Assembly: GCA_903881215.1 (NCBI GenBank)
Contig: CAIRSO010000253.1
Location: 1-32,388, forward strand
Length of the DNA stretch: 32,388 nucleotides
Direction: 5' to 3'
DNA from: an uncultured Bacteroidia bacterium
GTDB taxonomy: Bacteria > Bacteroidota > Bacteroidia > Bacteroidales > Prolixibacteraceae
Position numbers and translations under genes: made by a program. The stretch's first letter is position 1. Every line of letters starts with the position of its first letter. This document shows, piece by piece, positions 5,740-27,802 of this stretch. The notes beneath the pieces are model-generated. The model worked only from the letters and a program-made list of their open reading frames with translations, had not been told where the DNA came from and did no database searches.

Positions 5740-8700
5740 TTATTCAGCAAGTGGCAATGTAAAAATAAACTTACTCCCCTTCCCCTCCTCGCTCTCGACC
5801 AGAATAATCCCTTTGTGCTTTTCTACAAATTCCTTGCATAGTATCAATCCCAGTCCGGTGCCCTTTTCCCCGTTGGTACCAGGTGTCGAGTGGTTGCTAT
5901 CGATCCTGAAGATCTTTCCAATAGTATCCGCCGGAATCCCAACCCCATCGTCCTTGATCGCAATTTCACAATGGTCATCAACCCTACGGATAGAGATGAC
6001 AATATGCCCTTTCTTGTGGGTAAATTTAATGGCATTGGCCACCAGATTCCTGACTACCGTCGAAAACATGTTCACATCTGCCAGTACCCTGATCCCCTCC
6101 GTTGGTGAGATCTTTATTTTTATCTGCTTCCTGGTGTAAGCACTCTCCAAAAACTCAATGGATTCAGTAATTTTTGCATGAACATCCATGGATATTGGAT
6201 CAAATTTGATCGCCCTGGTCTGGAGTTTGGCCCAGGTCAGCAGGTTCTCAAGCAACTCGTGTGCCAGGTTGGAGGAGTTGTAAATATTGGTCAGATGCTT
6301 TTCCACCTTCTCGGGAACCATCGTTTTAAAGCTCGAAACCAACATTTCGGAGAAGCCGATGATGATGTTGAACTGGTTGCCGAGGTCATGGCCGATGATG
6401 GAGAAAAATTTGTCCTTGGTGCCATTTAGCTCTTTCAGCTCGCGGTTTTGGGAGACAATCAATTTGGACTGCTCCTCGATTTGCAACGTTCGCTCCTGTA
6501 CCTTTTGCTCCAGAATCGCTTTGGCTTGCCTCAGATTTCGCTCCCTCACTTTGATGAAAACATAGATGGAAAGAATGATCACCAACAGATAGGCCAAATA
6601 AGCATAAATACTTTTCCACCAAGGAGGTAGAATGGTGATGTGAAGGCTGTTCTCCTTGTCGTTCCAGACTCCATCGTTGTTCGATCCCTTTACCCTGAAC
6701 ACGTAATCACCTGCCTGAAGAGCCGAAAAAGGAACGAACTTCCGGTTTCCGATGTCCACCCATTCGTCAGAAATTCCCTCCATCTTGTAAGTATAATTGT
6801 TCTTCAACGGATTGGTGTATTCCAGCGCTGCAAACTCAATGGTGAAAGAGCTGACATTGTGTTTCAGTACCAGTTCCCTGGATTCTTCCAGATTGACATA
6901 CTCCCTGACATTGCCCCTACTCTTGTAAAATGCCGTAAATACCAGGTTGGGAATGTAGGGATTTCTGGCGATGGAGTCGGGATAGAAGGCGTTGAAACCA
7001 TTCATTCCACCCATCAGCAACTCCCCGTCTTTGCTGACACAAGCAGCCCTGAGGTTGAATTCCAGACTCTGCAATCCATCTTCCACCGTAAAGGTTTGGA
7101 AACGGTTTTGCCTCATGCTGAACTTGCACAGGCCCTTTCCCGTGGCGATCCACAGATCGTCGTTCCGGTCTTTCACCATCTCGAAAATCCTGTTGTTCGG
7201 CAAGCCATCTTTCTGCGAATAGTAGGTAAAAGTGGAATCTTTCTTGTCGAAAACATTCACATAGGTGTCGGTGCCAACCCAGATCCTCTTCCTGCTGTCT
7301 TCGCAAAGTGAGATGATAAAATCGTCGCTCAGCCCTCTGTCCCCTTTTCTGAAATGGCTGATTTTTCCCGTAGCCGGATGGTACACATCCAAACCACCCA
7401 CGGTGCCGATCCAAATCAGTCCGTCGGAATCTTCCAGCAGATAATAAACCAGGTTTTCGCTCAACCGGCGACTCTTGTCCAGCTCCTTCCTGAAGACTTC
7501 TACTGTCGATTTTTTCAGGTTGATTTTATAGAGTCCGTTTTGGGTTCCTATCCAGTAATTGGAAGCCTTGTCCTGTATGATCATATAGATCCTGACCTGG
7601 TCCAGTGCAGGAAGCAGCACATTCCCGAAATAGACATTCCAGGGAACGAATTGATCCTTCAGTTTGTCGTAGATAAGCAGTCCATTGCGCGTTCCCAACC
7701 AAATATGGTGATCTGAATCCTCAAAGATCACATGGATAAAGTCGTTCGGTAGTTTGTGCGTTCCACCCATCGCGGTAGAAAAATGTTCTACCTTGTTGGT
7801 GCTTCTATCAACCAGATTCAAGCCCTGTCCCCAGTTACCAACCCACAAAATTCCCTTCTCATCCTTGTAAAGAGAGGCAATGACATTCCCAAGCAGATCG
7901 AGCGAATTTGGGGAATTGCTTCTCCGGTAAAGTTGAAACTTCTTTTTCTTCAAATCAGTTTTGCTAATACCCTGGAGTGTGCCGATCCAAAGATTCTCCG
8001 ACCGGTCGATCCAAAGTGATTGCACGATGTTGTGACCTATTTCGCTGTTTTCGGAGGTATAGTTTTGAACCGTAGCCGGGATTTGCCCATTGTTCGAAAT
8101 AACATACAGCCCACGGCCTTCTGTGCCTACGATCAGGTTTCCGTTTTTATCATCCAGAATCGCCCTGATACAAGTGTTTTCCAAAGTAAAATTTTCAGTA
8201 GTACCTATGACAAACTGCGCCTCTTCAAAACGATTGGCAGGAGTCTTAAAACTGTATAACCCGGCAGTAGTTCCCACCCAAAGTACCCCCTGCTTATCAC
8301 GGTAGAGTGATGAAACCTGCACATCCCGGACGACATCCCCTCTTTTGTTGATAAACGGATAGTAGCTGAACTCTTTTGTCTGAGTCGAAAAACAGGTCAG
8401 CCCATTCGATGAACCAATCCAAAGGCGGCTGTCTTTCTCCTCCAGAACCGGCATCCTGACATCTTTAACGGCTCCATCGTACTCCATATTACTTTGATAA
8501 TGGGCAAAACTTCCCTTCCGGGGATCGTAAATCGAAATGAGTGGAGGCGTATTGATGAGAATCGAACCGTTGCTGAGACAAAGCAGGTCGTAGCAATAGT
8601 GGGTCAAATCGATGGGGAAACCAGTCTCATAGATGATTCTTTCGAATTTATTTTGGGTTGTCAGGTACCGGTTTAGTCCGCCCTTGGTTCCAATCCATAA

Positions 8701-8982
8701 ATTTTTGTCGAGGTCTTCTGTGATAGAATAAATCCAGTTGTTGGATATCGACCCGGAGTCGGCCGGATTGTAGCTGAACACCTCGAAAGTCTCCCCATTG
8801 AAACGGCAGAGTCCATTTTGGGTGCCAATCCAGATGTAGTCGTGCGAATCCTGAAAGATGCAGTTGACCACACTCTGTGAAAGTCCGTTGTTGATGGAGT
8901 AATTCGTAAATACGTACTGCTGCGCAAAACTATTTGCCAACAGCACGATCCAGAAAACAAAAATGGCAACAACTCTTTTCAT
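5740..8982 (-). CDS. Two-component sensor histidine kinase, reg_prop/Y_Y_Y type, 1080 aa, no receiver
   Basis: The order is that of the Bacteroidota hybrid two-component sensors: a signal peptide ending in NSFAQQ, about 13 reg_prop beta-propeller repeats (for example IWIGTQNGLCRF, LWIGTKGGLNRY, IWLGTRNGLLIY), a Y_Y_Y domain near residues 720-785, one transmembrane segment at about 791-812, a coiled-coil linker, HisKA with the phospho-acceptor His865 (SIIGHDLGNQ), and HATPase_c with the N box at Asn979 (NLVANAIKF), DDGVGIP and GTGLGL. It stops right after the ATPase domain (FTLPLAE), so the receiver and AraC-type output domain of classic HTCS proteins are missing. It therefore needs a separate response regulator. 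The ligand is probably periplasmic, perhaps a glycan, but nothing here proves it. Confidence 0.93.
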   Translation of the reverse strand: MKRVVAIFVFWIVLLANSFAQQYVFTNYSINNGLSQSVVNCIFQDSHDYIWIGTQNGLCRFNGETFEVFSYNPADSGSISNNWIYSITEDLDKNLWIGTKGGLNRYLTTQNKFERIIYETGFPIDLTHYCYDLLCLSNGSILINTPPLISIYDPRKGSFAHYQSNMEYDGAVKDVRMPVLEEKDSRLWIGSSNGLTCFSTQTKEFSYYPFINKRGDVVRDVQVSSLYRDKQGVLWVGTTAGLYSFKTPANRFEEAQFVIGTTENFTLENTCIRAILDDKNGNLIVGTEGRGLYVISNNGQIPATVQNYTSENSEIGHNIVQSLWIDRSENLWIGTLQGISKTDLKKKKFQLYRRSNSPNSLDLLGNVIASLYKDEKGILWVGNWGQGLNLVDRSTNKVEHFSTAMGGTHKLPNDFIHVIFEDSDHHIWLGTRNGLLIYDKLKDQFVPWNVYFGNVLLPALDQVRIYMIIQDKASNYWIGTQNGLYKINLKKSTVEVFRKELDKSRRLSENLVYYLLEDSDGLIWIGTVGGLDVYHPATGKISHFRKGDRGLSDDFIISLCEDSRKRIWVGTDTYVNVFDKKDSTFTYYSQKDGLPNNRIFEMVKDRNDDLWIATGKGLCKFSMRQNRFQTFTVEDGLQSLEFNLRAACVSKDGELLMGGMNGFNAFYPDSIARNPYIPNLVFTAFYKSRGNVREYVNLEESRELVLKHNVSSFTIEFAALEYTNPLKNNYTYKMEGISDEWVDIGNRKFVPFSALQAGDYVFRVKGSNNDGVWNDKENSLHITILPPWWKSIYAYLAYLLVIILSIYVFIKVRERNLRQAKAILEQKVQERTLQIEEQSKLIVSQNRELKELNGTKDKFFSIIGHDLGNQFNIIIGFSEMLVSSFKTMVPEKVEKHLTNIYNSSNLAHELLENLLTWAKLQTRAIKFDPISMDVHAKITESIEFLESAYTRKQIKIKISPTEGIRVLADVNMFSTVVRNLVANAIKFTHKKGHIVISIRRVDDHCEIAIKDDGVGIPADTIGKIFRIDSNHSTPGTNGEKGTGLGLILCKEFVEKHKGIILVESEEGKGSKFIFTLPLAE

Positions 8983-9485: not shown

Positions 9486-9558
9486 AGCAGTTATTGTGCT
9501 ATGGACGGGATCTGTTGGCTTTCTGCCCGCCCAATCTCAAAACAAAATATTTCGCCAA

Positions 9559-10617
9559 ATGACACCTAATACTTTTAATCGACTGTTGCATATTCGGCCC
9601 GTCAATCATATGATTTACTGGATCTCGTTTGTTGCCATCGGTTCTTATGTTTTCAGTTATCAGCAAAATTTCCCTTACCAGTTTTACCTTCTAAATCTGA
9701 TGGTTCACCTTCCGGTATTAATGCTGTATACCTATTTCGTGGTCTATGCGCTGGTCCCTAATTTCCTGCTAAGAGGTAGGTATTTCAGCTTTTTGGGGTC
9801 GCTAGCTATGACATCTGCCCTGGCATCTCTGCTAAAATTGTCTATCAGCAAAAATGTCTATTACGCACTTTTTATTCCGTCGGCTTTGCATCCGAAAGAT
9901 TGGTACACAGCGGATGGTTTCCTGATTAATTTACTTTGGATCATGGGGCCAACCGTTCTTTTTGCCATGTTCAAATACTACAAAAACTGGATCAGAAGTC
10001 AGGATATTTCCAACGAAGCCGAACGCAAACGCCTTGCCACTGAGTTGCAGGTGCTGAAGGGGCAGTTGAATCCCCATTTCCTTTTTAATACACTAAACAA
10101 TCTTTACTCCCTCGCATTGAGCAAAAGCAGCAAAACAGCCGTCGTCATTGCCAAGATGTCTGAGATGTTTCATTACATTTTGTATGAATGCAACGCTACC
10201 GAGGTACCCGTTTCGAAGGAGATTAAGCTCATCGAAAATTACATTGAGCTTGAACAAATCAGGTATTCAGACCGGCTCTCCGTAAAATTCGAAAAAGATG
10301 TGGATAATATGAATCACCTGATCCCACCAATGTTGCTGTATTCGTATGTGGAAAATTGTTTCAAGCATGGCAGCAGTAAGGATCCCAATATGCCCTGGAT
10401 CAGGATTTCCCTGCGTGTCAAAAACGACTGCCTGACCTTCGAGGCCCTCAACAGCATTCCGGACAAAGGCAAAAATGATAGTACTGAGGGAGTCGGTCTG
10501 CTGAACGCAAAAAGACGGCTCGAATTGATCTATCCACAGAATCACAGGCTTACAGTTCGCGAGGAGAACAGTGAATTTTATGTCAGACTCGACATCACAA
10601 AAAACAACGGGAGATGA
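9559..10617 (+). CDS. LytS-type sensor histidine kinase, 352 aa
   Basis: This is a His_kinase (LytS/YehU-like) family sensor. Four hydrophobic segments lie at about residues 18-33, 42-68, 77-95 and 118-140. The phospho-acceptor His173 is in QLNPHFLFNTLN, the N box carries Asn266 (YSYVENCFKHG), and a G box GVGLLN is at 311-316. Such kinases usually pair with LytTR response regulators, and one lies two genes downstream. I start at the ATG at 9559 (MTPNTFNRLL); an in-frame GTG at 9496 would add 21 residues (MLWTGSVGFLP...) and is less like the family start. The TGA overlaps the ATG of the next gene by 4 bp, so the two are translationally coupled. The sensor part has no large extracellular domain. 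Confidence 0.92.
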   Translation: MTPNTFNRLLHIRPVNHMIYWISFVAIGSYVFSYQQNFPYQFYLLNLMVHLPVLMLYTYFVVYALVPNFLLRGRYFSFLGSLAMTSALASLLKLSISKNVYYALFIPSALHPKDWYTADGFLINLLWIMGPTVLFAMFKYYKNWIRSQDISNEAERKRLATELQVLKGQLNPHFLFNTLNNLYSLALSKSSKTAVVIAKMSEMFHYILYECNATEVPVSKEIKLIENYIELEQIRYSDRLSVKFEKDVDNMNHLIPPMLLYSYVENCFKHGSSKDPNMPWIRISLRVKNDCLTFEALNSIPDKGKNDSTEGVGLLNAKRRLELIYPQNHRLTVREENSEFYVRLDITKNNGR

Positions 10618-12398
10618 AGTATCTACTGCTTTTGCTTTTCATTTTATCTGTTAGTTGTTTGAATGAGAAGCAACAATCCGAATTGATCTTACGTCATTAC
10701 ATCGACAAAAATGTCGACCTGATCCGCAATTTTTCAATGGAGAGTACGGTTGCACTCTGGAACGCAAATCTATCCGGCAATCAGAGCGATTACAAGAAGC
10801 TCCTTGAACTGGAATTTGTTTTTAACAATTCAAACCAAAACAAAAGTGGTCAATTTGCTCCTGATAAGTTTGTTTCATTTACTGAAAATGTCTTCACCAA
10901 AGAAAAGGATTTCGAACTACTCAGGAAATTAAAGAACTCCGAATTGATTACTGATCCGATGCTAAAAAGGCAATTGACTGTGTTGTATCAATCTTTTATG
11001 GGACCGCAGTTGGAGGAGAACCGGTACAAAAAACTGAGGTTCGCCGAAACCCAATTGTGGCAGTCTTATTCAACCAATCAGGTGGTGGTGGGTGACAAGA
11101 AATATGTAGGAGCTCAGCTTGATTCGATCTTGAAATATTCGACCGACACGGCAATCCTGAGAAAGGTGTACACTGCCTACCGGGATAAAGGGAAACAAAT
11201 TGCCGGAGACATTGTCAAGATGGTAAAGACCAGGAACGAATTTGTCCGTGAATTTGGCTACACCGATTATTACCAGCTCGCTCTGGAAAACAAGGATCAG
11301 ACCCCGGAGATGATCAAAACATTACTTGATTCAATAGAACTGAAAACGCGTAAACCTTTTTTTGAAGCCAAATCGCTTGTAGATAAAGTGCTGTCCGGGA
11401 AATTTCATATCTCAAAAGAAGAGCTTCAATGTTACCATTACAACGACGAGCGTGCCAGCTACCTGCCAAAGAGTTTTTTGGCAAAAATGGATTCCTTGTT
11501 TAGCAAGCGGGATCCGATCGAACAGGTCGCCGGCTTTTTCAATGGCATTGGACTTCCGGTTCAGGATGTCATCAACAACAGCGACCTGAAAGCAAAAAAG
11601 GGCAAATCGATGGGGACGAATTTTTTCAATGTGGATTTTAAGAGCGATATGCGCATGATGGCCAGCATTCAGGAGAATGCCGAAGGGATGAGAAAGATGA
11701 TGCACCTTTGCGGTCATGCCTCACATTTCAAAAATATCTCGGATACCATACCTTACCTTTTGAAATACCCAAATGCGGTGGTAGTCGAAGGGATTGCCTG
11801 CTTTTTTGAGAACCTGACTATGAACAGTGATTGGCTGAAACGGGAATTTGAATTGGATTCAGTCAGTAGCCATGAATATAAGCTTCTTTGCATGCATCTT
11901 ATGCAGGTCGACCGGTTGTACCGATTCAGGCGACTCCTGGTGAAATCTGTCTTTGAAAGAGAGGTCTACCGTAATCCGGATCAAAATCTTGGTGCACTGT
12001 GGTACAAGCTTAACGAGGAGTATCTGGGAATCAAGCCGCCCAAAGATCCAAACACCACCGATTGGGCAACCAGCAGCTATTTTACCAGTTTCTCCTGCAC
12101 TGTTCATAACTATGTTCTTGCCGAGTTGTTTGCCGGACAATTAAGGCACTTCATGGAAAAGAATATTCTGAAAGGAGGGGATGCTGACTATCAAAACAAC
12201 AAGAAAGTGGGTGAATTTCTGGTATCTCAGATCTACCAATATGGGGATATCATAACCTGGGACCGACTCATTGAGCAAGCCACCGGCGAACCATTAAATC
12301 CAAACTATTATGCCAATTTACTGACCAGAGATAGTGAAGAAAATGAGGCAAAAATAATTTCCGCCGTTAAGGCAAAGAATGGCTCTCCTAAATATTAA
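10614..12398 (+). CDS. ACE-like (M2-type) lipoprotein with degenerate active site, 594 aa
   Basis: A lipobox ends the signal peptide (LFILSVSC, Cys15), so the product should be a lipoprotein. The body is all-helical and resembles bacterial M2/M3 gluzincin peptidases: TQLWQSYST, KTRNEFVREFGYTDYYQLAL, HNYVLAELFAGQL. At the zinc site the sequence reads HLCGH (His364, His368), with the third ligand Glu392 in VVVEGIACFFE, 24 residues on, the spacing known in angiotensin-converting enzyme. The catalytic Glu of HExxH is replaced by Leu365. By recalled alignment, the residues matching the ACE Lys, His and Tyr that bind substrate are Ser487, Tyr489 and Thr496. So it may still bind zinc or peptide but should not be a normal peptidase. 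It overlaps the kinase gene by 4 bp and precedes a LytTR regulator, so a sensory role is likely (inference). Confidence 0.82.
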   Translation: MKYLLLLLFILSVSCLNEKQQSELILRHYIDKNVDLIRNFSMESTVALWNANLSGNQSDYKKLLELEFVFNNSNQNKSGQFAPDKFVSFTENVFTKEKDFELLRKLKNSELITDPMLKRQLTVLYQSFMGPQLEENRYKKLRFAETQLWQSYSTNQVVVGDKKYVGAQLDSILKYSTDTAILRKVYTAYRDKGKQIAGDIVKMVKTRNEFVREFGYTDYYQLALENKDQTPEMIKTLLDSIELKTRKPFFEAKSLVDKVLSGKFHISKEELQCYHYNDERASYLPKSFLAKMDSLFSKRDPIEQVAGFFNGIGLPVQDVINNSDLKAKKGKSMGTNFFNVDFKSDMRMMASIQENAEGMRKMMHLCGHASHFKNISDTIPYLLKYPNAVVVEGIACFFENLTMNSDWLKREFELDSVSSHEYKLLCMHLMQVDRLYRFRRLLVKSVFEREVYRNPDQNLGALWYKLNEEYLGIKPPKDPNTTDWATSSYFTSFSCTVHNYVLAELFAGQLRHFMEKNILKGGDADYQNNKKVGEFLVSQIYQYGDIITWDRLIEQATGEPLNPNYYANLLTRDSEENEAKIISAVKAKNGSPKY

Positions 12399-12403
12399 AT
12401 TTG
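12396..12403 (+). promoter_or_regulatory. Possible internal -7 box TAAATTTG before the LytTR gene
   Basis: TAAATTTG matches TAnnTTTG and overlaps the TAA stop of the ACE-like gene, 47 bp before the LytTR start codon. No TTG lies 19-21 bp upstream, so this may be chance. If used, it would let the regulator be made apart from the kinase. Confidence 0.25.
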
Positions 12404-12449
12404 TGTAATTGATTTGAATAAGAGGTTACCTATAGAAAAAGAGGCGGTT

Positions 12450-13184
12450 ATGAAAACAAAATACTTGATTGTTGATGATGAGCCACTGGCCCGCGACCTG
12501 ATCAGAGCCCACATAGAAAAGCTGGAGAATTTTGAGATCGTGGCAGAGTGCAACAACGCCATGAAAGCCCTGAGTGTTCTTCGTGAGAAGCATGTGGATC
12601 TTATGTTCATGGACATTCAGATGCCACAGATCACCGGTATCGAGTTCCTTAAAACGCTGAAACATCCGCCAAAAGTCATCATAACTACTGCCTACCGGGA
12701 TTATGCCCTGGAGGGTTTTGAACTCGATGTGGTGGATTATCTGATTAAACCCATCACTTTTGAGCGTTTCCTTAAATCTGTCAACAAGTTTTACCAGATG
12801 AACCTCGAGGCGATCCAGGGCAATGCCTCCTCACCTGCCGAGAAAGCCAATGATGAGAGTTTTATCTACGTGAAAGAGAACAAGAAGGTGATCAAGATTT
12901 ACCTCTCCGAAATCAGATATGTGGAAGGTTTGAGCGAATATGTTCAGATTTACACCGACAAACGCAAGATTATTACCAAAAACAGCATGGCCCTGATGGA
13001 AGAGAAACTGCCCACAGACCATTTTCTTCGCATCCACAAGTCCTACATCGTACCGGTAAACAAGATTGAAGCCTTTACCGCCAACACCATCGAAATCCAG
13101 GGGAAAGAGCTCCCTATTGGCCGAAATTTCAAGAATGCTGTACTCAGTGCTTTGAATTATTCCGGTCCGGTTGCTGGAGTGTAA
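12450..13184 (+). CDS. LytTR-family response regulator, 244 aa
   Basis: The N-terminal receiver shows the acidic pair in YLIVDDEPLARD, the phospho-acceptor Asp55 in LMFMDIQMP, the Thr in VIITTAYRDYA and the Lys in VVDYLIKP. A linker leads to a C-terminal LytTR DNA-binding domain (about residues 140-240: FIYVKENKKVIKI, IRYVEGLSEYVQIYT, FLRIHKSYIV, LPIGRNFKNAV). I start at the ATG at 12450, where the receiver fold begins; it has GAGG about 8 bp upstream. An in-frame ATG at 12414 adds 12 unneeded residues. It is the third gene after the LytS-type kinase and the ACE-like lipoprotein (51-bp gap) and is the obvious partner of that kinase. LytTR proteins bind paired direct repeats; none was identified here. 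Confidence 0.93.
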   Translation: MKTKYLIVDDEPLARDLIRAHIEKLENFEIVAECNNAMKALSVLREKHVDLMFMDIQMPQITGIEFLKTLKHPPKVIITTAYRDYALEGFELDVVDYLIKPITFERFLKSVNKFYQMNLEAIQGNASSPAEKANDESFIYVKENKKVIKIYLSEIRYVEGLSEYVQIYTDKRKIITKNSMALMEEKLPTDHFLRIHKSYIVPVNKIEAFTANTIEIQGKELPIGRNFKNAVLSALNYSGPVAGV

Positions 13185-13422: not shown

Positions 13423-13881
13423 ATGAAAACAATTTTTTTAACAACTGCAATGGTCCTTCTGGTTTCAATGTTTGCAATGGGTAACAAGTTAGTTGCCAAA
13501 GGATCCTCAAATTCCGCTTTCGGAGATTACAAAATCGAACAATTGGAAGATCACATGATGCTTCAGGGTAAAGAACTGGACAAGTATTTAATTTCCTATG
13601 AAAAATCCGACATGAAAGTCGTCGTTGTCCTTGACAAACAGAAAAAATGCAAAAAGTACTACGTTCTTACCGATAAAGCTCCCATCCAGTACGAATGTAA
13701 TGGAGTCTATTTTGGAATCAAGAAACTTGACGGCGAACTTCTCTCCAGTGGATATGCAACTTCAATGGATAAATTGAACAAGCAAGTTTACTACCACCAA
13801 AGAGTGCTGGCAAGCGGAACAACCGAAACTGTTGCACATCTTGAACTGATTGCATCCTATTATCCTGAATTAGTCAGCTAA
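13423..13881 (+). CDS. Small secreted protein, 152 aa, function unknown
   Basis: I do not recognise a named family. A signal peptide (MKTIFLTTAMVLLVSMFAMG) is followed by about 130 residues rich in Lys, Tyr and beta-strand patterns: YLISYEKSDMKVVVVLDKQK, KYYVLTDKAPIQYEC and GVYFGIKKL. Two cysteines (in KKCKKYY and QYECNG) could pair. It reads like a compact periplasmic or secreted beta-rich domain. It has its own -7 box and a very strong terminator, so it is a monocistronic unit that may be well expressed. It lies 238 bp downstream of the LytTR regulator on the same strand, which makes it a possible target of that system; this is only positional evidence. Confidence 0.78.
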   Translation: MKTIFLTTAMVLLVSMFAMGNKLVAKGSSNSAFGDYKIEQLEDHMMLQGKELDKYLISYEKSDMKVVVVLDKQKKCKKYYVLTDKAPIQYECNGVYFGIKKLDGELLSSGYATSMDKLNKQVYYHQRVLASGTTETVAHLELIASYYPELVS

Positions 13882-14182: not shown

Positions 14183-14407
14183 TCAGTTACGAGTTATTCT
14201 TCGCACCACCATCCCATTCTCCCCTGCAAAAACCTCCAGCCTGTCCGCGTCCACATTACTCACTTCCAGACACAGTCCGCACTCCGTCGAGTATGGTTTT
14301 GGCACCGGAATGACCTTCACCGGAATCTTAACTCTCACGCACCACAGCTCCGCCTTGATTACCTGACGGATGTTCTGAAACAGCATGATTTCTCTATTTT
14401 CCGACAT
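14183..14407 (-). CDS. DUF3343 family small protein, putative Se/S carrier, 74 aa
   Basis: The sequence follows the DUF3343 pattern: an N-terminal strand and helix ([18 protein letters not shown]), then [20 protein letters not shown] with the conserved Cys43 and Cys46, then a short C-terminal strand. DUF3343 proteins are small, ferredoxin-like folded proteins often found beside selenium genes and proposed as selenium or sulfur carriers. Here the gene is the last of the mnmH-yedF-aminotransferase set, overlapping the aminotransferase gene by 14 bp, which agrees with such a role. The start is uncertain: ATG at 14425, 14407 or 14386 all give an intact core. I favour 14407. Confidence 0.75.
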
Positions 14408-15512
14408 CGTGGATTGCTTTTGCAAGATAATTCAACTCCTCCGGCGTATGATAGGGAGACAAGGAAAAACGGCAATCCCCATTTGGGAAAGAGCCCAAAT
14501 GACGGTGTGCCAAAGGCGCGCAATGGAGTCCTGCCCTCGACTCAATGCCAAATTTTTCATAAAATTGCAGTGCCAACTCCGACGAACTTAATGATTGGTG
14601 AACCACTGAGAACAGCTTCCCCTGATGGGCAAAATCTTCGGCGCAACGAACCACATAATTCCTGTTCTTCCTTACCTCGTTCAGCAAAGCGGAAAAATCA
14701 TCCCGCGAATGCTGCGCCACCGGACAGTTCTTCAGTGCCGCATTCAATCCATGAATCCCGGTTATATTGGGCGTTCCGGCCTCAAAACGGTCGGGTACAA
14801 AGGAAGGCATCGAAAGTGAATCAGATCCGCTGCCGGTGCCGCCGAAAATCAAAGGCTCCACCATCTCCGGATGCCGGATAAACGCCCCACCGGTACCTGT
14901 GGGTCCCAACAGTGATTTGTGTCCGGTGAAAGCCAGAAAATCGACTCCCCAATGATCAACCTCAACAGGATGTGAACCCAGCGACTGACTCGCGTCAATC
15001 AACAAAGGAATATCTCCAATGGCTTTTTTGATCTCTCCCGGCGACTGGGCCATACCGTTCACATTGCTCATGTGGCATACGGCGACCAGGATGGTGTTGG
15101 GACGTAGTTTCGCGGCAATCTTTTCCGTCAGAATTCGTCCGTCGGGTGCGCTATCCAGCAGCTCCCATTCGATCAAACCCATCTGGCACAGGTGCTGAAG
15201 TGGCCGGGCGATCGCATTGTGCTCCATAGCAGAAGTAAGCACATGGCCGCCCTTTTTGCAGATTCCCTGGATCATCAGGTTCAACGCTGTGGTGGCATTG
15301 GCGGTCAGGACGATCTTGCCCCCATCCGACGTGCCCATCCATACTGCCAGCTGATCGCGGCACTCTTCCACCAATCTTGTCGAATGCAGTATCCGCGGAT
15401 ACGCAGACCGTCCATAGGTGCCACCTGTCTCATTCAGGTGCTTGCTCATAGCCTCCGCTACCGCTGAAGGTTTAGGGAAGCTGGTCGCGCAATTGTCGAA
15501 ATATAGATTCAT
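14394..15512 (-). CDS. Class V aminotransferase, cysteine desulfurase/selenocysteine lyase-like, 372 aa
   Basis: This is a PLP-dependent fold-type I enzyme that should release sulfur or selenium from cysteine or selenocysteine. It starts [15 protein letters not shown], as in the cysteine desulfurase family protein group found beside orphan selenium genes. His98 stacks on PLP (AMEHNA), Asp173 binds the pyridine N (LLIDASQS), and Lys199 is the Schiff-base residue ([13 protein letters not shown]). The likely reactive Cys331 lies in [16 protein letters not shown]. The gene is followed by DUF3343 with a 14-bp overlap and preceded by yedF, so it probably supplies selenide/persulfide in the same pathway. 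It is shorter than IscS and lacks its long active-site loop. Confidence 0.87.
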
Positions 15513-15516
15513 AAGA

Positions 15517-15648
15517 AGTTTGAAATGTTTAGGAAGTTTGAAATGTTTGTGACGTTTAAAAAGTTTGAAAAGTTACCCAAGCAGTCGAAAGGAAGCACGA
15601 AACTCCATAAACATTTCAAACCCTTCAAACAATTTAAACTTTCCAAAC
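15517..15648. repeat. Family B inverted pair
   Basis: The left arm (about 15517-15549) is made of GTTTGAAATG/GTTTAGGAA units and the right arm (about 15608-15648) carries their reverse complements (CATTTCAAACCCTTCAAAC). This gives an imperfect stem of about 30 bp with a 58-bp loop. It fills most of the 143-bp gap between yedF and the aminotransferase gene and so would be transcribed if the locus is an operon. It may stabilise RNA ends or attenuate transcription. Confidence 0.65.
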
Positions 15649-15655
15649 AATTTTT

Positions 15656-16261
15656 CTAAGGCTTTATTATGTGCCCGGCCTTCGCCATCGTCTCGGTAAT
15701 GGTAAACATATTCGAGATTCTGCCCACGGCGAGCAGGGTTTTCACTTCGTAAAAATCGACGCAGGTGCCGCAGATCATGACATCTACTCCACTCTCGTCC
15801 AAGGTCTTCAGCGAACCGATCACACCGGAATCTATGGTTGCCAGCTTTACACCGGAATTGTAAAAAATCAGATGCGTCGGCAGAATGGGTTGCTCAATCA
15901 GTGAATTCAGAAATGCCTTCATCAGGATGGCTCCAAGTTCAGGATCCCCATCGCCCATCTTGTCGCTGCTTACAACCACAACGTAGGAATTGGAGCACAT
16001 TCCGGGATCAATGCTTCCAGTTCCAGCCACTTCTTCTACCTCAACTTTTTCATTCACTACCGTGATGTGAAAGATCCCATCCAACTCAGTCCCTTCCGGG
16101 GATAGCGCCTGATCGTTCAAATAAGTCAGGATATTTTGAAAAGCCGTTTTATTGTCACATTCAATCTTAAGTGTCTCGCCCGGCAGACAGTTTTTCAGTG
16201 CCTTTCTCGTCAAGATCAATGGTTGCGGACAAAGCAACCCTTTGCCATCTACTGTTTGCAT
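15656..16261 (-). CDS. yedF: Selenium metabolism protein YedF, 201 aa
   Basis: The protein has two parts. Residues 1-75 form a TusA/SirA-like domain with the hallmark CPQP motif (Cys11 in GLLCPQPLILTRKAL). Residues about 95-201 form a DsrE-like domain, with SSDKMGDGDPELGAILMKAF and, near the end, DVMICGTCVDFYEV carrying Cys164 and Cys167. This fusion and the CGTC motif are those of the selenium-associated YedF family, which occurs in genomes that use selenium and is thought to carry or sense it. It sits between mnmH and the desulfurase-like gene. ATG at 16261 is the natural start. No obvious promoter was seen; the 521-bp repeat-rich gap upstream makes co-transcription with mnmH uncertain. Confidence 0.9.
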   Translation of the reverse strand: MQTVDGKGLLCPQPLILTRKALKNCLPGETLKIECDNKTAFQNILTYLNDQALSPEGTELDGIFHITVVNEKVEVEEVAGTGSIDPGMCSNSYVVVVSSDKMGDGDPELGAILMKAFLNSLIEQPILPTHLIFYNSGVKLATIDSGVIGSLKTLDESGVDVMICGTCVDFYEVKTLLAVGRISNMFTITETMAKAGHIIKP

Positions 16262-16304
16262 ATTACGATGATATTATTCTTTATTATTCAAACACATATA
16301 ACTC

Positions 16305-16350
16305 CTCCCAACCACGGATTACACAGATTACACGAATTAAAAGAAGAAAT
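16305..16350 (-). repeat. Family A unit in inverted orientation, joined to the tandem array
   Basis: CCCAACCACGGATTACACAG followed by ATTACACGAATTAA and AAGAAATGCTTTCTCCG is the reverse complement of the family A/C joint at 9180-9230. It marks the left edge of the family C array and is the only clear family A copy in this orientation in the window. Confidence 0.7.
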
Positions 16351-16357
16351 GCTTTCT

Positions 16358-16767
16358 CCGCATCACCGTTTCCCCGTTTCAATTCTTCAAATTCGTGAGC
16401 TCCACTCGCCCAGTCTCCCAGTCTCCTAGTCCCCCAGTCCTTCTTCCCCGTTTCTCCGTTTCAATTCTTCAAATTCGTGAGTTCCGCTCGCCTAGTCTCC
16501 CAGTCTCCTAGTCCCCCAGTCCTTCTTCCCCGTTTCTCCGTTTCAATTCTTCAATCTCCTAAGCTCCACTCGCCCAGTCTCCAAGTCTCCTAGTCCCCTA
16601 GTCCTTCTTCCCCGTTTCTCCGTTTCAATTCTTCAAATTCGTGAGTTCCGCTCGCCTAGTCTCCAAGTCTCCTAGTCCCCTAGTCCTTCTTCCCCGTTTC
16701 TCCGTTTCAATTCTTCAATCTCCTAAGCTCCACTCGCCCAGTCTCCTAGTCCCCCAGTCCCCTAGTC
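16358..16767. repeat. Family C tandem array, 82-bp unit, five copies
   Basis: Four copies of exactly 82 bp start at 16440, 16522, 16604 and 16686, after a diverged first copy at about 16358-16439. Each unit reads CTTCTTCCCCGTTTCTCCG, TTTCAATTCTTCAA, a variable part, CTCGCC and then 8-nt steps of AGTCTCCC/AGTCTCCT/AGTCCCCC. The variable part alternates: copies 1, 2 and 4 have ATTCGTGAG, copies 3 and 5 have TCTCCTAAG, giving a 164-bp higher-order period. One strand is almost all pyrimidine. It lies between mnmH and yedF. No open frame of note is conserved, and there are no unique spacers, so it is not CRISPR. Confidence 0.9.
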
Positions 16768-16782
16768 TTTGTTCATTTTTAA

Positions 16783-17808
16783 CTAATCGAACTGAATCTC
16801 CCGTTCTGCAAAATCAACCAATTCCGGCGCAATCAATTCGGGAGAATACGATTTCGCCACAAAAGATATCATCTTCGTATCCCGCCTGGCCATGCTGAAG
16901 TCGTAGGATTTGTCGTAATAACCGAGGGTGATCTCAACCACTTTCCGGTAGTCTCCGGCATGAAGCGCTTCCAGGGTATCCTGTGTATCCTTGCCACCCA
17001 GACGTTTACTGATCTTTTCGACACTTACCTGCAGTTCCTCAGCCGGAAAGCCGGCATAGTCGCGCAACAAGCGCTCAACGCGTTCCGACTTGGGCGGATC
17101 AATACGAATCGTCTGACAGTTGTTCATCTGAAGAAACAACTCGTTCAGGATAGACACCCTTCCAATGGCCTGACTCTCACCCTCCACCCAGATGGGTTTG
17201 GAGCGATCAAATCCGATGACCTTCTCGAAGATGAGGTTGGTAAATTGTTCGGTAGATGGCTGCGGCGGCTGACCGATTCCGCCAAAACTGGATCCACGGT
17301 GATTGGCCAGTCCTTCGAGGTCCAAAACCTGCTGACCCATTTCAGCCAATTGGTGCAAAATTTCCGTCTTGCCCGAACCGGTCGGACCGCTCAGCATGAT
17401 CAATTTCAGTCCGTTGGAGACAAGCTCGCGGCCATAGGTCCGGTATGCCTTGTAGCCTCCTTCGAGCACAAAAACCTCCCTGCCTGCCGTGGCCAGCAAC
17501 CAAGCCATGCTGCTGCTGCGCATACCACCACGCCAGCAATAAAGACAAAGGGCTCCGGGATATTTCCTGGCTTGCAGCACATATTTCTTCAGCTTTGGCC
17601 CCACCAGATCGAGCCCTTTCAGCACGGCTGTATCTCTCCCCTGCTGCTTGTAAAGTGTCCCGACAATGACACGCTCCTCATCCGTGAAAAGGGGAAAAGA
17701 GATGGCATTGGGCAGATGACCCTCAGCAAACTCTGCCGGAGTACGAATGTCCAAAACGACATTCTCCTTCATCTTTCCAATAAACTCTTCAACTTTTAAC
17801 ACTGTCAT
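16783..17808 (-). CDS. mnmH: tRNA 2-selenouridine synthase MnmH (SelU), 341 aa
   Basis: The enzyme converts 2-thiouridine at the wobble position of certain tRNAs to 2-selenouridine through a geranylated intermediate, using selenophosphate. Seen: an N-terminal rhodanese domain with the active Cys91 in CLYCWRGGMRSSS, then a P-loop domain with Walker A GPTGSGKT (141-148), the conserved DLEGLANHRGSSFGG (about 163-177) and WVEGESQAIGRV. Its length matches the family (about 340-370). A textbook Bacteroidota promoter lies directly upstream on the minus strand. It is followed, after a 521-bp repeat region, by yedF, the desulfurase-like gene and DUF3343. The selenophosphate synthetase gene selD is not in the window and must lie elsewhere if the enzyme is active. 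Confidence 0.96.
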   Translation of the reverse strand: MTVLKVEEFIGKMKENVVLDIRTPAEFAEGHLPNAISFPLFTDEERVIVGTLYKQQGRDTAVLKGLDLVGPKLKKYVLQARKYPGALCLYCWRGGMRSSSMAWLLATAGREVFVLEGGYKAYRTYGRELVSNGLKLIMLSGPTGSGKTEILHQLAEMGQQVLDLEGLANHRGSSFGGIGQPPQPSTEQFTNLIFEKVIGFDRSKPIWVEGESQAIGRVSILNELFLQMNNCQTIRIDPPKSERVERLLRDYAGFPAEELQVSVEKISKRLGGKDTQDTLEALHAGDYRKVVEITLGYYDKSYDFSMARRDTKMISFVAKSYSPELIAPELVDFAEREIQFD

Positions 17809-26054: not shown

Positions 26055-26208
26055 AACAATGAATTTTAGAAGATTATAATGAATCATTAAAGATATAATT
26101 ATTACTGTTTAACAACGAAATCCATTCACTTCTTTGATCTCAATATTGATTCAAAAATCTTTCAGTGCCTAAATCATAGATGTTGTTCCTTCCAAACATT
26201 TTGCTGAT

Positions 26209-26216
26209 TATCTTTG
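26209..26216 (+). promoter_or_regulatory. -7 box TATCTTTG for the ceramidase-like gene
   Basis: TATCTTTG fits TAnnTTTG, 38 bp upstream of the ATG at 26255. A TTG lies 23 bp upstream, a little more than the usual 19-21. It supports starting the protein at 26255, because the ATG at 26180 would lie upstream of the transcript start. Confidence 0.5.
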
Positions 26217-26254
26217 CAGGGAATCACAGTCGCAAATCGCTAAAAACTATTACC

Positions 26255-27802
26255 ATGAAGAAGTTCTTCAAATTCTTAGGCTTCGGATTTTTATTGCTCA
26301 TAATTATCATTTTGGTCTGGTTTGGAATCAATCTCAGGGACCAGCATCCAGATTATAAAGTGGACTTGAAAATTCTGAACAATGCCCCGGCTCAGCTCTC
26401 TGCCGGTTTCGCTGCTATGCCAATCACACCCACTGTTTCCGATCGCTGGGACGATAAAAACAAAAATGCTGAATTCGATAAGGGCGAAACCTTCACCGAT
26501 GGAAACGGAAACGGAAAATTCGATCCGGTGTGGATCGCCGGCTTCGGCAACAACAAACCTGCCAACGGCATCCACGACGACCTGTGGGCCCGGGCAATGG
26601 TCATCGATGATGGCAAAACCCGGCTGGCTATCGTGGTTCTAGATGCCATCGGCTTCATGAACAACGATGTGATCGATGTGAGGGAGCGCGTTTCCAAAGA
26701 GTCCGGAATCACCTACGCCATCATCTCCTCTACCCATACCCACGAAGGACCCGATTTGCTTGGCCTCTGGGGAAAAACACCCTTCGGCAGCGGTATTGAC
26801 CCGGCCCACATGGAGTATGTGAAAAATCAGGCAGCCAGGGCCATCGAAACTGCCACGAAGAATCTTCGTCCCGCCCGCTTGTCCATCTCTCAGGACCTCA
26901 CCGGTGCCGCTCCTTTGGTGATTGACACCAGAAAACCCGAAGTCTTTGATTCCGGTCTTAGGATGATCCAAGTCCTCGACAAAGAATCAGGTAAAACAAT
27001 GGGAACGCTTATCTCATTTGGCAACCATCCTGAAACACTTTGGAGCGATAACCTATTGCTCACCTCCGACTTTCCGCATTTTGTTCGTGAAGGAATCGAG
27101 AAAGGTGTATTTAGCAAGGATAGTCTGATGAGACCAGGCGTTGGAGGTGTCACCGTTTATGCCAGTGGAGCCGTTGGCGGATTGATGACCACCCATCCAA
27201 GACTAGTTGTGAAAGATCCGTTTTCCGGAGAAGAATTCAAAGCCGCGACTTTCGAAAAAGCCGCCGCTCAGGGCAAACAAATGGCCAATCTGGCGCTTCA
27301 GGCGATGGCAAAACCTGATGAAGTGATCGACTCAGCCTCCATTTCAATAGTCGCAAAAACCGTTCTGTTCCCACTGGAGAACACTATGTTTAAACTGGCA
27401 GCCATGCTTGGCGTAATGAAAAGAGGTACCTCCGGCTGGATGAAGATGAAATCAGAACTTGCCGTGGTAAAAATCGGACCAATATCCATGGTCACAATTC
27501 CCGGAGAGCTGTATCCTGAAATACTTAATGGTGGTGTTGAGTCTCCCGAAGGACAGGATTTTAAAATTTCACCCATCGAAGTGCCATCCATCAGGGAGAT
27601 GATGCCGGGAAAATACAAATTCATGTTCGGCCTGGCCAACGACGAAATCGGATACATCGTCCCAAAAAGCCAATGGGATGTAAAAGCACCCTATACCTAT
27701 GGAAAGGATGGCGCTCCTTACGGCGAAGTCAACTCGCTCGGACCGGAAACTGCTCCCCTAATTCACAAGAACATAAAGGACATGATTTTCCAATTGAAAT
27801 AA
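26255..27802 (+). CDS. Neutral/alkaline ceramidase-like protein, membrane-anchored, 515 aa
   Basis: A start MKKFFKFLGFGFLLLIIIIL gives one N-terminal transmembrane anchor or signal. The body follows the neutral ceramidase-like family: LSAGFAAMPITPT at the N-terminal strand, SSTHTHEGPD with the zinc histidines, SFGNHPETLWSDN and VTIPGELYPEI. Between them lies an EF-hand-like Asp/Asn-rich insert (DDKNKNAEFDKGETF and TDGNGNGKFDP) that probably binds calcium, and HDDLWARAMV. Real ceramidases carry a further C-terminal domain that is absent here, so the substrate may be another amide or ester. I use the ATG at 26255. The last codons (DMIFQLK) lie in one arm of a perfect palindrome shared with the converging HAD gene. 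Confidence 0.85.
   Translation: MKKFFKFLGFGFLLLIIIILVWFGINLRDQHPDYKVDLKILNNAPAQLSAGFAAMPITPTVSDRWDDKNKNAEFDKGETFTDGNGNGKFDPVWIAGFGNNKPANGIHDDLWARAMVIDDGKTRLAIVVLDAIGFMNNDVIDVRERVSKESGITYAIISSTHTHEGPDLLGLWGKTPFGSGIDPAHMEYVKNQAARAIETATKNLRPARLSISQDLTGAAPLVIDTRKPEVFDSGLRMIQVLDKESGKTMGTLISFGNHPETLWSDNLLLTSDFPHFVREGIEKGVFSKDSLMRPGVGGVTVYASGAVGGLMTTHPRLVVKDPFSGEEFKAATFEKAAAQGKQMANLALQAMAKPDEVIDSASISIVAKTVLFPLENTMFKLAAMLGVMKRGTSGWMKMKSELAVVKIGPISMVTIPGELYPEILNGGVESPEGQDFKISPIEVPSIREMMPGKYKFMFGLANDEIGYIVPKSQWDVKAPYTYGKDGAPYGEVNSLGPETAPLIHKNIKDMIFQLK

Follow-up and report, generated by a model that had tools for sequence, protein, structure and literature searches.

LytS-type histidine kinases have hardly any outer domain, and for most of them the means of sensing is an open question. 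An operon in a 32,388-nucleotide stretch of DNA from an uncultured bacterium of the Bacteroidota family Prolixibacteraceae (assembly GCA_903881215.1, contig CAIRSO010000253.1; the whole stretch is called the window below) raises it in a particular form: there such a kinase is encoded immediately before a lipoprotein resembling angiotensin-converting enzyme (ACE), and a LytTR response regulator follows. What does a peptidase-like lipoprotein do beside a kinase of this type? We found that the kinase and the lipoprotein are a conserved unit, inherited together, and that the lipoprotein is kept under purifying selection.

The layout given in the original prediction, in which a LytS-type kinase gene overlaps by 4 bp that of a 594-residue lipoprotein and a LytTR regulator follows 51 bp after the lipoprotein stop, was borne out by open reading frames, Pfam matches and alignments, all three genes lying on the forward strand. 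The kinase gene (9559..10617) runs from an ATG at 9559 to a stop at 10617, in a frame that stays open upstream to a GTG at 9496, and its product matches PF06580 (E 1.2e-24), with the His box (NPHFLFNTLNNLY) and the N box (VENCFKHG) both intact. The overlap with the lipoprotein gene (10614..12398) consists of ATGA, and the regulator gene (12450..13184) opens with an ATG at 12450. The regulator combines a receiver (Response_reg, E 1.4e-24) with a LytTR DNA-binding domain (E 1e-17), and its Asp55 and Asp9/Asp10 are invariant in nine aligned relatives. Together they supply what defines a LytS/LytTR system, namely a PF06580 kinase that has its phospho-accepting His and its N box, and a receiver Asp with a LytTR domain. 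That the kinase has four membrane helices with almost no soluble loop is plausible: the loops are short, but a crude hydropathy scan calls only three hydrophobic stretches (residues ~42-72, 76-97 and 117-140) and leaves an N-terminal one (~17-34) uncalled.

Co-inheritance of the lipoprotein with one kinase clade

The window's genome comprises 4.99 Mb in 881 contigs and is 85% complete, and the genomes compared with it are mostly drafts, in which the absence of a gene can be an assembly gap. Among 140 genomes of the family, 26 have a match to the lipoprotein profile, and in 20 the lipoprotein adjoins the kinase: that of the window, G001, G031, G522, twelve of genus g18 and four of genus g16 (G, g and L numbers denote genomes, genera and loci). 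A type unlinked to the kinase is the only one in G024, G438 and G442, G433 has both types, and the rest are one remnant (G441) and two weak matches. The kinase profile scores at least 409 bits in exactly the 20 pair-bearing genomes and never above 313 bits in the remaining 120, a gap that is partly built in, the profile having been made from 15 of the 20 partner kinases; the five outside it give the same result, but they are closely related members of genus g18. In a kinase tree, a 99/93 branch sets the full-length kinases that adjoin a lipoprotein, 19 in number, apart from 26 others, drawn from these and related clusters and not from all LytS kinases (L078, whose kinase is cut, was omitted), and none of 500 shuffles was as clustered. 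The linked lipoproteins (19 rows) likewise form one side of a 100/100 branch in a tree with 33 unlinked-type rows, from which L087, at a contig end, was omitted. Six close genome pairs recur in both trees and L082 and L083 are placed differently; in the kinase tree a long branch divides a subgroup of g16 and G031 from the rest.

Of 19 loci measured, 18 have kinase and lipoprotein genes spaced by -8 to +18 bp and one, G001, by 84 bp, some start codons having been picked by hand for this measurement. The distance from lipoprotein to regulator is looser (4-181 bp in 16 loci), and the regulator lies directly downstream of the pair in 16 of the 20 genomes. Since the kinase-lipoprotein order recurs in 20 genomes, the same 20 that hold the high-scoring kinase, the arrangement is not due to chance, and the proposed partnership stands. 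As to the regulator as a third part, its link is not with the lipoprotein alone: of the 140 genomes, 61 hold a close match (E <= 1e-90), and 43 of these lack the pair, the other 18 being among the 20 that have it. In genus g16, moreover, three loci have the pair without a neighbouring regulator, the next gene differing, and the fourth breaks off at a contig end; two of these four genomes have a close regulator match elsewhere. Because the regulator is widespread without the pair and the pair occurs in g16 without a neighbouring regulator, the tie is between kinase and lipoprotein first and the regulator second. In samples of the order and the class (393 and 395 genomes) we found no kinase-linked lipoprotein outside the family, neighbours having been checked for the loci returned, in flanks of at most 1.5 kb; in these samples scores alone cannot separate distant linked from unlinked members.

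Ancestry and active site of the lipoprotein

The lipoprotein has a lipobox (SVSC) whose Cys15 is invariant among 14 aligned operon members. Its proposed peptidase origin is supported by profile matches, which place it with family M2 (ACE) and the M32/M3 gluzincins and indicate clear descent from a widespread Bacteroidota family-M2 lipoprotein. The only Pfam match of the window protein is to PF02074 (M32) in its C-terminal part (E 1.4e-10). A profile of 14 operon lipoproteins retrieves, from solved structures, M32 carboxypeptidases and ACE (E 5e-10 and 1.4e-9, respectively; 12 sequences in total), hhalign joins window-type lipoproteins to unlinked Bacteroidota M2 lipoproteins at E 1e-116, and two unlinked relatives with the zinc motif HEXXH match PF01401 (M2) at E 3e-30 and 3e-29. 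Relatives at ~30% identity are common: counting that of the window, 91 of the 393 genomes sampled from the order have a match. HEXGH and the third-ligand Glu are kept in 28 of 31 unlinked rows examined; the other three have lost zinc ligands and retain the motif Glu. These three (L011:541-2250, L015:2570-4198 and L021:1255-2961) are a separate clade of M2-type lipoproteins, in which both zinc His are lost, the third Glu has become Asp and the Lys, His, Tyr and Tyr of the substrate site are retained; no LytS kinase was seen beside them.

In the window, alignment places the former HEXXH at residues 364-368, which read HLCGH (11703..11717), with Leu for the catalytic Glu and both His kept, and the third zinc-ligand position at Glu392 (11787..11789), which is also kept. 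The region that in ACE serves substrate binding and the transition state falls at residues 487-500 (12072..12113), where unlinked relatives have K-x-H...Y..Y and the window protein S, Y, V and Y; we take these positions to correspond to Lys511, His513, Tyr520 and Tyr523 of ACE, with the roles those residues have there. Of what marks an active M2 peptidase, then, the window protein has the descent and the third-ligand Glu; it has neither HEXXH with its Glu nor the full Lys/His/Tyr/Tyr set. Unlike M2 enzymes it has replaced the Glu by Leu as well as the Lys, the His and one Tyr, and it is presumably non-cutting.

Comparison of rows shows a graded loss. All nine unlinked HEXXH rows keep the four equivalents of K511, H513, Y520 and Y523. 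The equivalents of K511 and Y520, presumably the residues holding the substrate C-terminus in ACE, are lost in all 19 linked rows with sequence there. The g16/G031 subgroup retains HEXXH with Glu in 5/5, and the H513 and Y523 equivalents in the 4/4 with sequence. Of the 15 rows of the window's branch, 14 have Leu for the Glu and none retains the H513 equivalent, yet the three zinc-ligand residues (His, His, Glu) survive in 13; the other two members, L082 and L083, have lost both zinc His and kept the operon. As read from the alignment, linked proteins thus lost two substrate residues first; loss of catalysis followed in the window's branch, and loss of zinc ligands in two of its members. Zinc-ligand residues that outlast catalysis would fit a binding cleft. 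The description of the protein as an inactive peptidase therefore holds for the window's branch, where the catalytic Glu is lost, but not for the five linked members (four of g16 and G031) that keep HEXXH and Glu.

The ratio of nonsynonymous to synonymous substitution (dN/dS) of the lipoprotein is 0.15 and 0.09 in two close pairs, synonymous sites being saturated between the window and G001 for both lipoprotein and kinase. Together with the active-site pattern, these values show that selection maintains the lipoprotein, and does so in the window's branch for a role other than ordinary cutting.

What the lipoprotein may do beside the kinase

The exclusive pairing, the mostly overlapping or abutting frames, the short kinase loops and the lipidation lead us to think it fairly probable that the operon encodes a three-part system, in which the ACE-derived lipoprotein would be an extracytoplasmic co-sensor of its own kinase and the signal would pass to the LytTR regulator. 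The lipoprotein would be lipid-anchored outside the inner membrane, with placement in either the inner or the outer membrane, and would act as a dedicated co-sensor, whether activator or inhibitor, of the kinase encoded just upstream. A ligand, most likely a peptide since the lipoprotein descends from a peptidase, may be bound in the old zinc cleft instead of cut, and the lipoprotein would contact the short outer loops or the helices of the kinase. The kinase would then phosphorylate the regulator, which in related genomes may be common to other, lipoprotein-free LytS kinases. From this arrangement we infer physical contact, a direction of effect, a peptide ligand, zinc binding and targets of the regulator.

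Such a mechanism has a model. In the available text of two papers, the qseEGF operon of Enterobacteriaceae encodes, as a third member with kinase and regulator, an outer-membrane lipoprotein, QseG, that binds and activates the kinase QseE (PMC6075780, PMC12691602). The original prediction knew of no two-component system that includes an inactive peptidase; a lipoprotein gene placed between those of kinase and regulator, however, is precedented. Here too the lipoprotein gene lies beside kinase and regulator genes, and between them in the window and in 16 of the 20 pair-bearing loci; contact outside the membrane, seen for QseG in those texts, is what we would expect here. QseE, however, has a periplasmic loop, and QseF acts on sigma-54 promoters. 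As the window has a LytTR and not a sigma-54 regulator, membership in the QseEGF group is unlikely.

Several results weigh against the co-sensor reading. Co-inheritance and spacing fit any joint function, sensing or other, the gap in kinase scores is partly built in, and close regulator matches extend well beyond the pair. Constraint on the lipoprotein is weaker than on its partner kinase (dN/dS 0.03 and 0.06) and not stronger than on an unlinked relative (0.04 and 0.09). Inside the otherwise dead branch L079 reads HEGGH, its Glu retained or regained, and the five linked members with HEXXH and Glu may still cut, which bears on the clade as a whole. AlphaFold2, run on the window lipoprotein with one relative, gave a mean predicted local distance difference test score (pLDDT) of 36.6 and a predicted template modelling score of 0.29; as this is no usable model, the fold rests on sequence profiles. 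Finally, 33 of 34 unlinked-type loci have no LytS or LytTR match in flanks of up to 1.5 kb per side (the weak matches L066, L067 and L069, none with a kinase or regulator match, were omitted from the 34), and the remaining one, L034, has a convergent LytS/LytTR pair nearby. Longer stretches around five of them (5.6-15.9 kb) contain no LytS/LytTR gene either, nor do the flanks of another 31 loci, some of them from genomes of the first set. The objection that homologues are mostly unlinked is therefore correct for relatives in the wide sense, but these are a separate clade, and the linked clade is linked throughout.

Other roles would also account for parts of this evidence. The lipoprotein could be an effector, a peptide- or zinc-binding envelope protein co-expressed with and controlled by the kinase and never touching it. 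Effectors are often encoded with their regulators, a general habit of gene neighbourhoods, the three g16 loci without an adjoining regulator would suit such a role, and it does without the kinase contact that we infer; we nevertheless consider it unlikely, because the pairing is exclusive to one kinase clade and not to the regulator, widespread without the lipoprotein, and because the frames are tight or overlapping with that of the kinase. That the protein is still a peptidase, one that uses another base residue or residual activity to process a signal peptide or some partner, for instance the secreted protein described below, agrees with the zinc-ligand residues kept in 13 of 15 branch members, with L079, and with the five relatives that have HEXXH and Glu, four of them, where there is sequence, also His and Tyr. 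Against this, 14 of those 15 members have Leu for Glu and none keeps the His513 equivalent, the operon survives in L082 and L083, which have lost both zinc His, and the secreted protein also occurs beside clusters without the lipoprotein; we find the reading quite improbable. A decaying relic, a non-functional duplicate carried along, is already disfavoured and very hard to credit: dN/dS is 0.09-0.15 in two pairs, only one of 20 copies is cut, by a contig end, and the lipobox Cys does not vary among the 14 aligned. It can draw on the greater variation of the lipoprotein compared with kinase and regulator, and on G441, where an N-terminal remnant of the lipoprotein is in frame with an N-terminally truncated regulator (L089:5715-6683) and no partner kinase was found in the genome.

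The wider LytS/LytTR module and related systems

The regulator belongs to a wider module of a secreted protein, tandem LytS kinases and a LytTR protein, often without the lipoprotein. In four stretches from genera g10 and g5 a secreted protein gene is followed by two or three LytS kinases and the regulator, with the lipoprotein absent; several g18 clusters have the order secreted protein, kinase, pseudokinase, partner kinase, lipoprotein, regulator. Related genomes have up to four tandem kinases with one regulator, and the window locus retains only the partner kinase of the set. Eleven of 45 kinases examined have Arg, Lys or Ile for the phospho-accepting His and an altered N box, and the 19 partner kinases keep both. 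Apparent histidine pseudokinases are encoded at L070:4023-5063, L072:8858-9910, L075:8802-9842, L083:8342-9385, L152:4371-5408 and others.

In the window the secreted protein, SecP, has 152 residues (13423..13881, forward strand) and no Pfam match above the curated cutoff; a structure prediction for it alone gave a pLDDT of 45.2, too low for use. We associate it with the module because its family lies beside LytS/LytTR genes with and without the lipoprotein: it occurs in 119 of the 140 genomes, and 23 of the 30 best-scoring loci, the window's included, have a LytS or LytTR match within 1.5 kb, the other seven having none. Upstream of the SecP gene in 12 g18 genomes (L122-L132 and L134), aligned by anchoring on the first CGTTNRT-like site, such sites occur at 0, at +42 and, weakly, at +21; the mean position weight matrix score at +42 is 3.1, against -16.2 (standard deviation 4.9) over offsets, which rank +42, +66, +46, +21. 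A conserved TTTGAAATAAATTTACTTC block follows the repeats in most of the 12. The available text of two reports gives LytTR sites as 9-11-nt repeats with 11-13-nt spacers (PMC4847170, PMC6193735), and the array spacing fits these, which makes it a candidate site and a lead only. Of 28 genomes searched with a loose form of the pattern, 18 gave a match, 10 of these directly before the SecP gene; another 11 places matched too, and a reversed control pattern matched in 2 genomes. Against the array as the regulator's site count the lack of an exact match in the window's own genome and a weaker array in G428, which has no close regulator match.

In G001, G031 and four g18 genomes the operon has SusC genes nearby, some of them accompanied by SusD. 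In G001 (L010:693-5382, L158) a SusC/SusD pair stands between the regulator and SecP genes, where the window has only 238 bp, and the flanks otherwise look syntenic. Upstream of the window's operon a divergent Reg_prop/Y_Y_Y histidine kinase (5740-8982) has no receiver or helix-turn-helix domain found by Pfam, and a similar protein occupies the same place in G001. Downstream are sulfur-handling neighbours (14394-17808: class-V aminotransferase, TusA-domain and rhodanese-domain proteins) and a match to the N-terminal domain of neutral/alkaline ceramidase (26180-27802, E 4e-11).

Like LytSR, BtsSR/YehUT and YpdAB, the system joins a PF06580 kinase to a LytTR regulator; it differs in that related genomes carry tandem kinases, one class of which lacks the phospho-accepting His. 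We know of no lipoprotein partner in those three systems, and to our knowledge QseG is not a peptidase derivative. The LytTR Regulatory Systems of Streptococcus mutans and relatives, as presented in the available text, pair a LytTR regulator with a dedicated membrane inhibitor (PMC6193735) and resemble the present case in the dedicated partner beside the regulator, but here there are a kinase and a lipidated former peptidase. Among the matches listed from an open-access library, no paper dealt with a two-component system containing a lipoprotein that derives from ACE or is an inactive peptidase.

A bolder version of the co-sensor reading, which we offer tentatively and find somewhat doubtful, is that the protein passed stepwise from peptidase to receptor while bound to the kinase, the pocket for the substrate C-terminus, catalysis and zinc being lost in turn, and that it reports peptides to a module that in related genomes includes histidine pseudokinases as well. 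If true, both classes of dead enzyme, pseudo-peptidase and histidine pseudokinase, would act together in one bacterial signalling array. The succession from an intact peptidase motif, by way of a dead enzyme that keeps zinc, to a protein without zinc, all beside one kinase type, would be a natural series from enzyme to receptor, and the co-inherited lipoprotein would give a concrete handle on LytS sensing, being open to deletion, purification and ligand screening. A kinase co-inherited with an ACE-like lipoprotein that mostly lacks the cutting site suggests that, in the Prolixibacteraceae, an old protein-cutting enzyme became part of a bacterial sensor.

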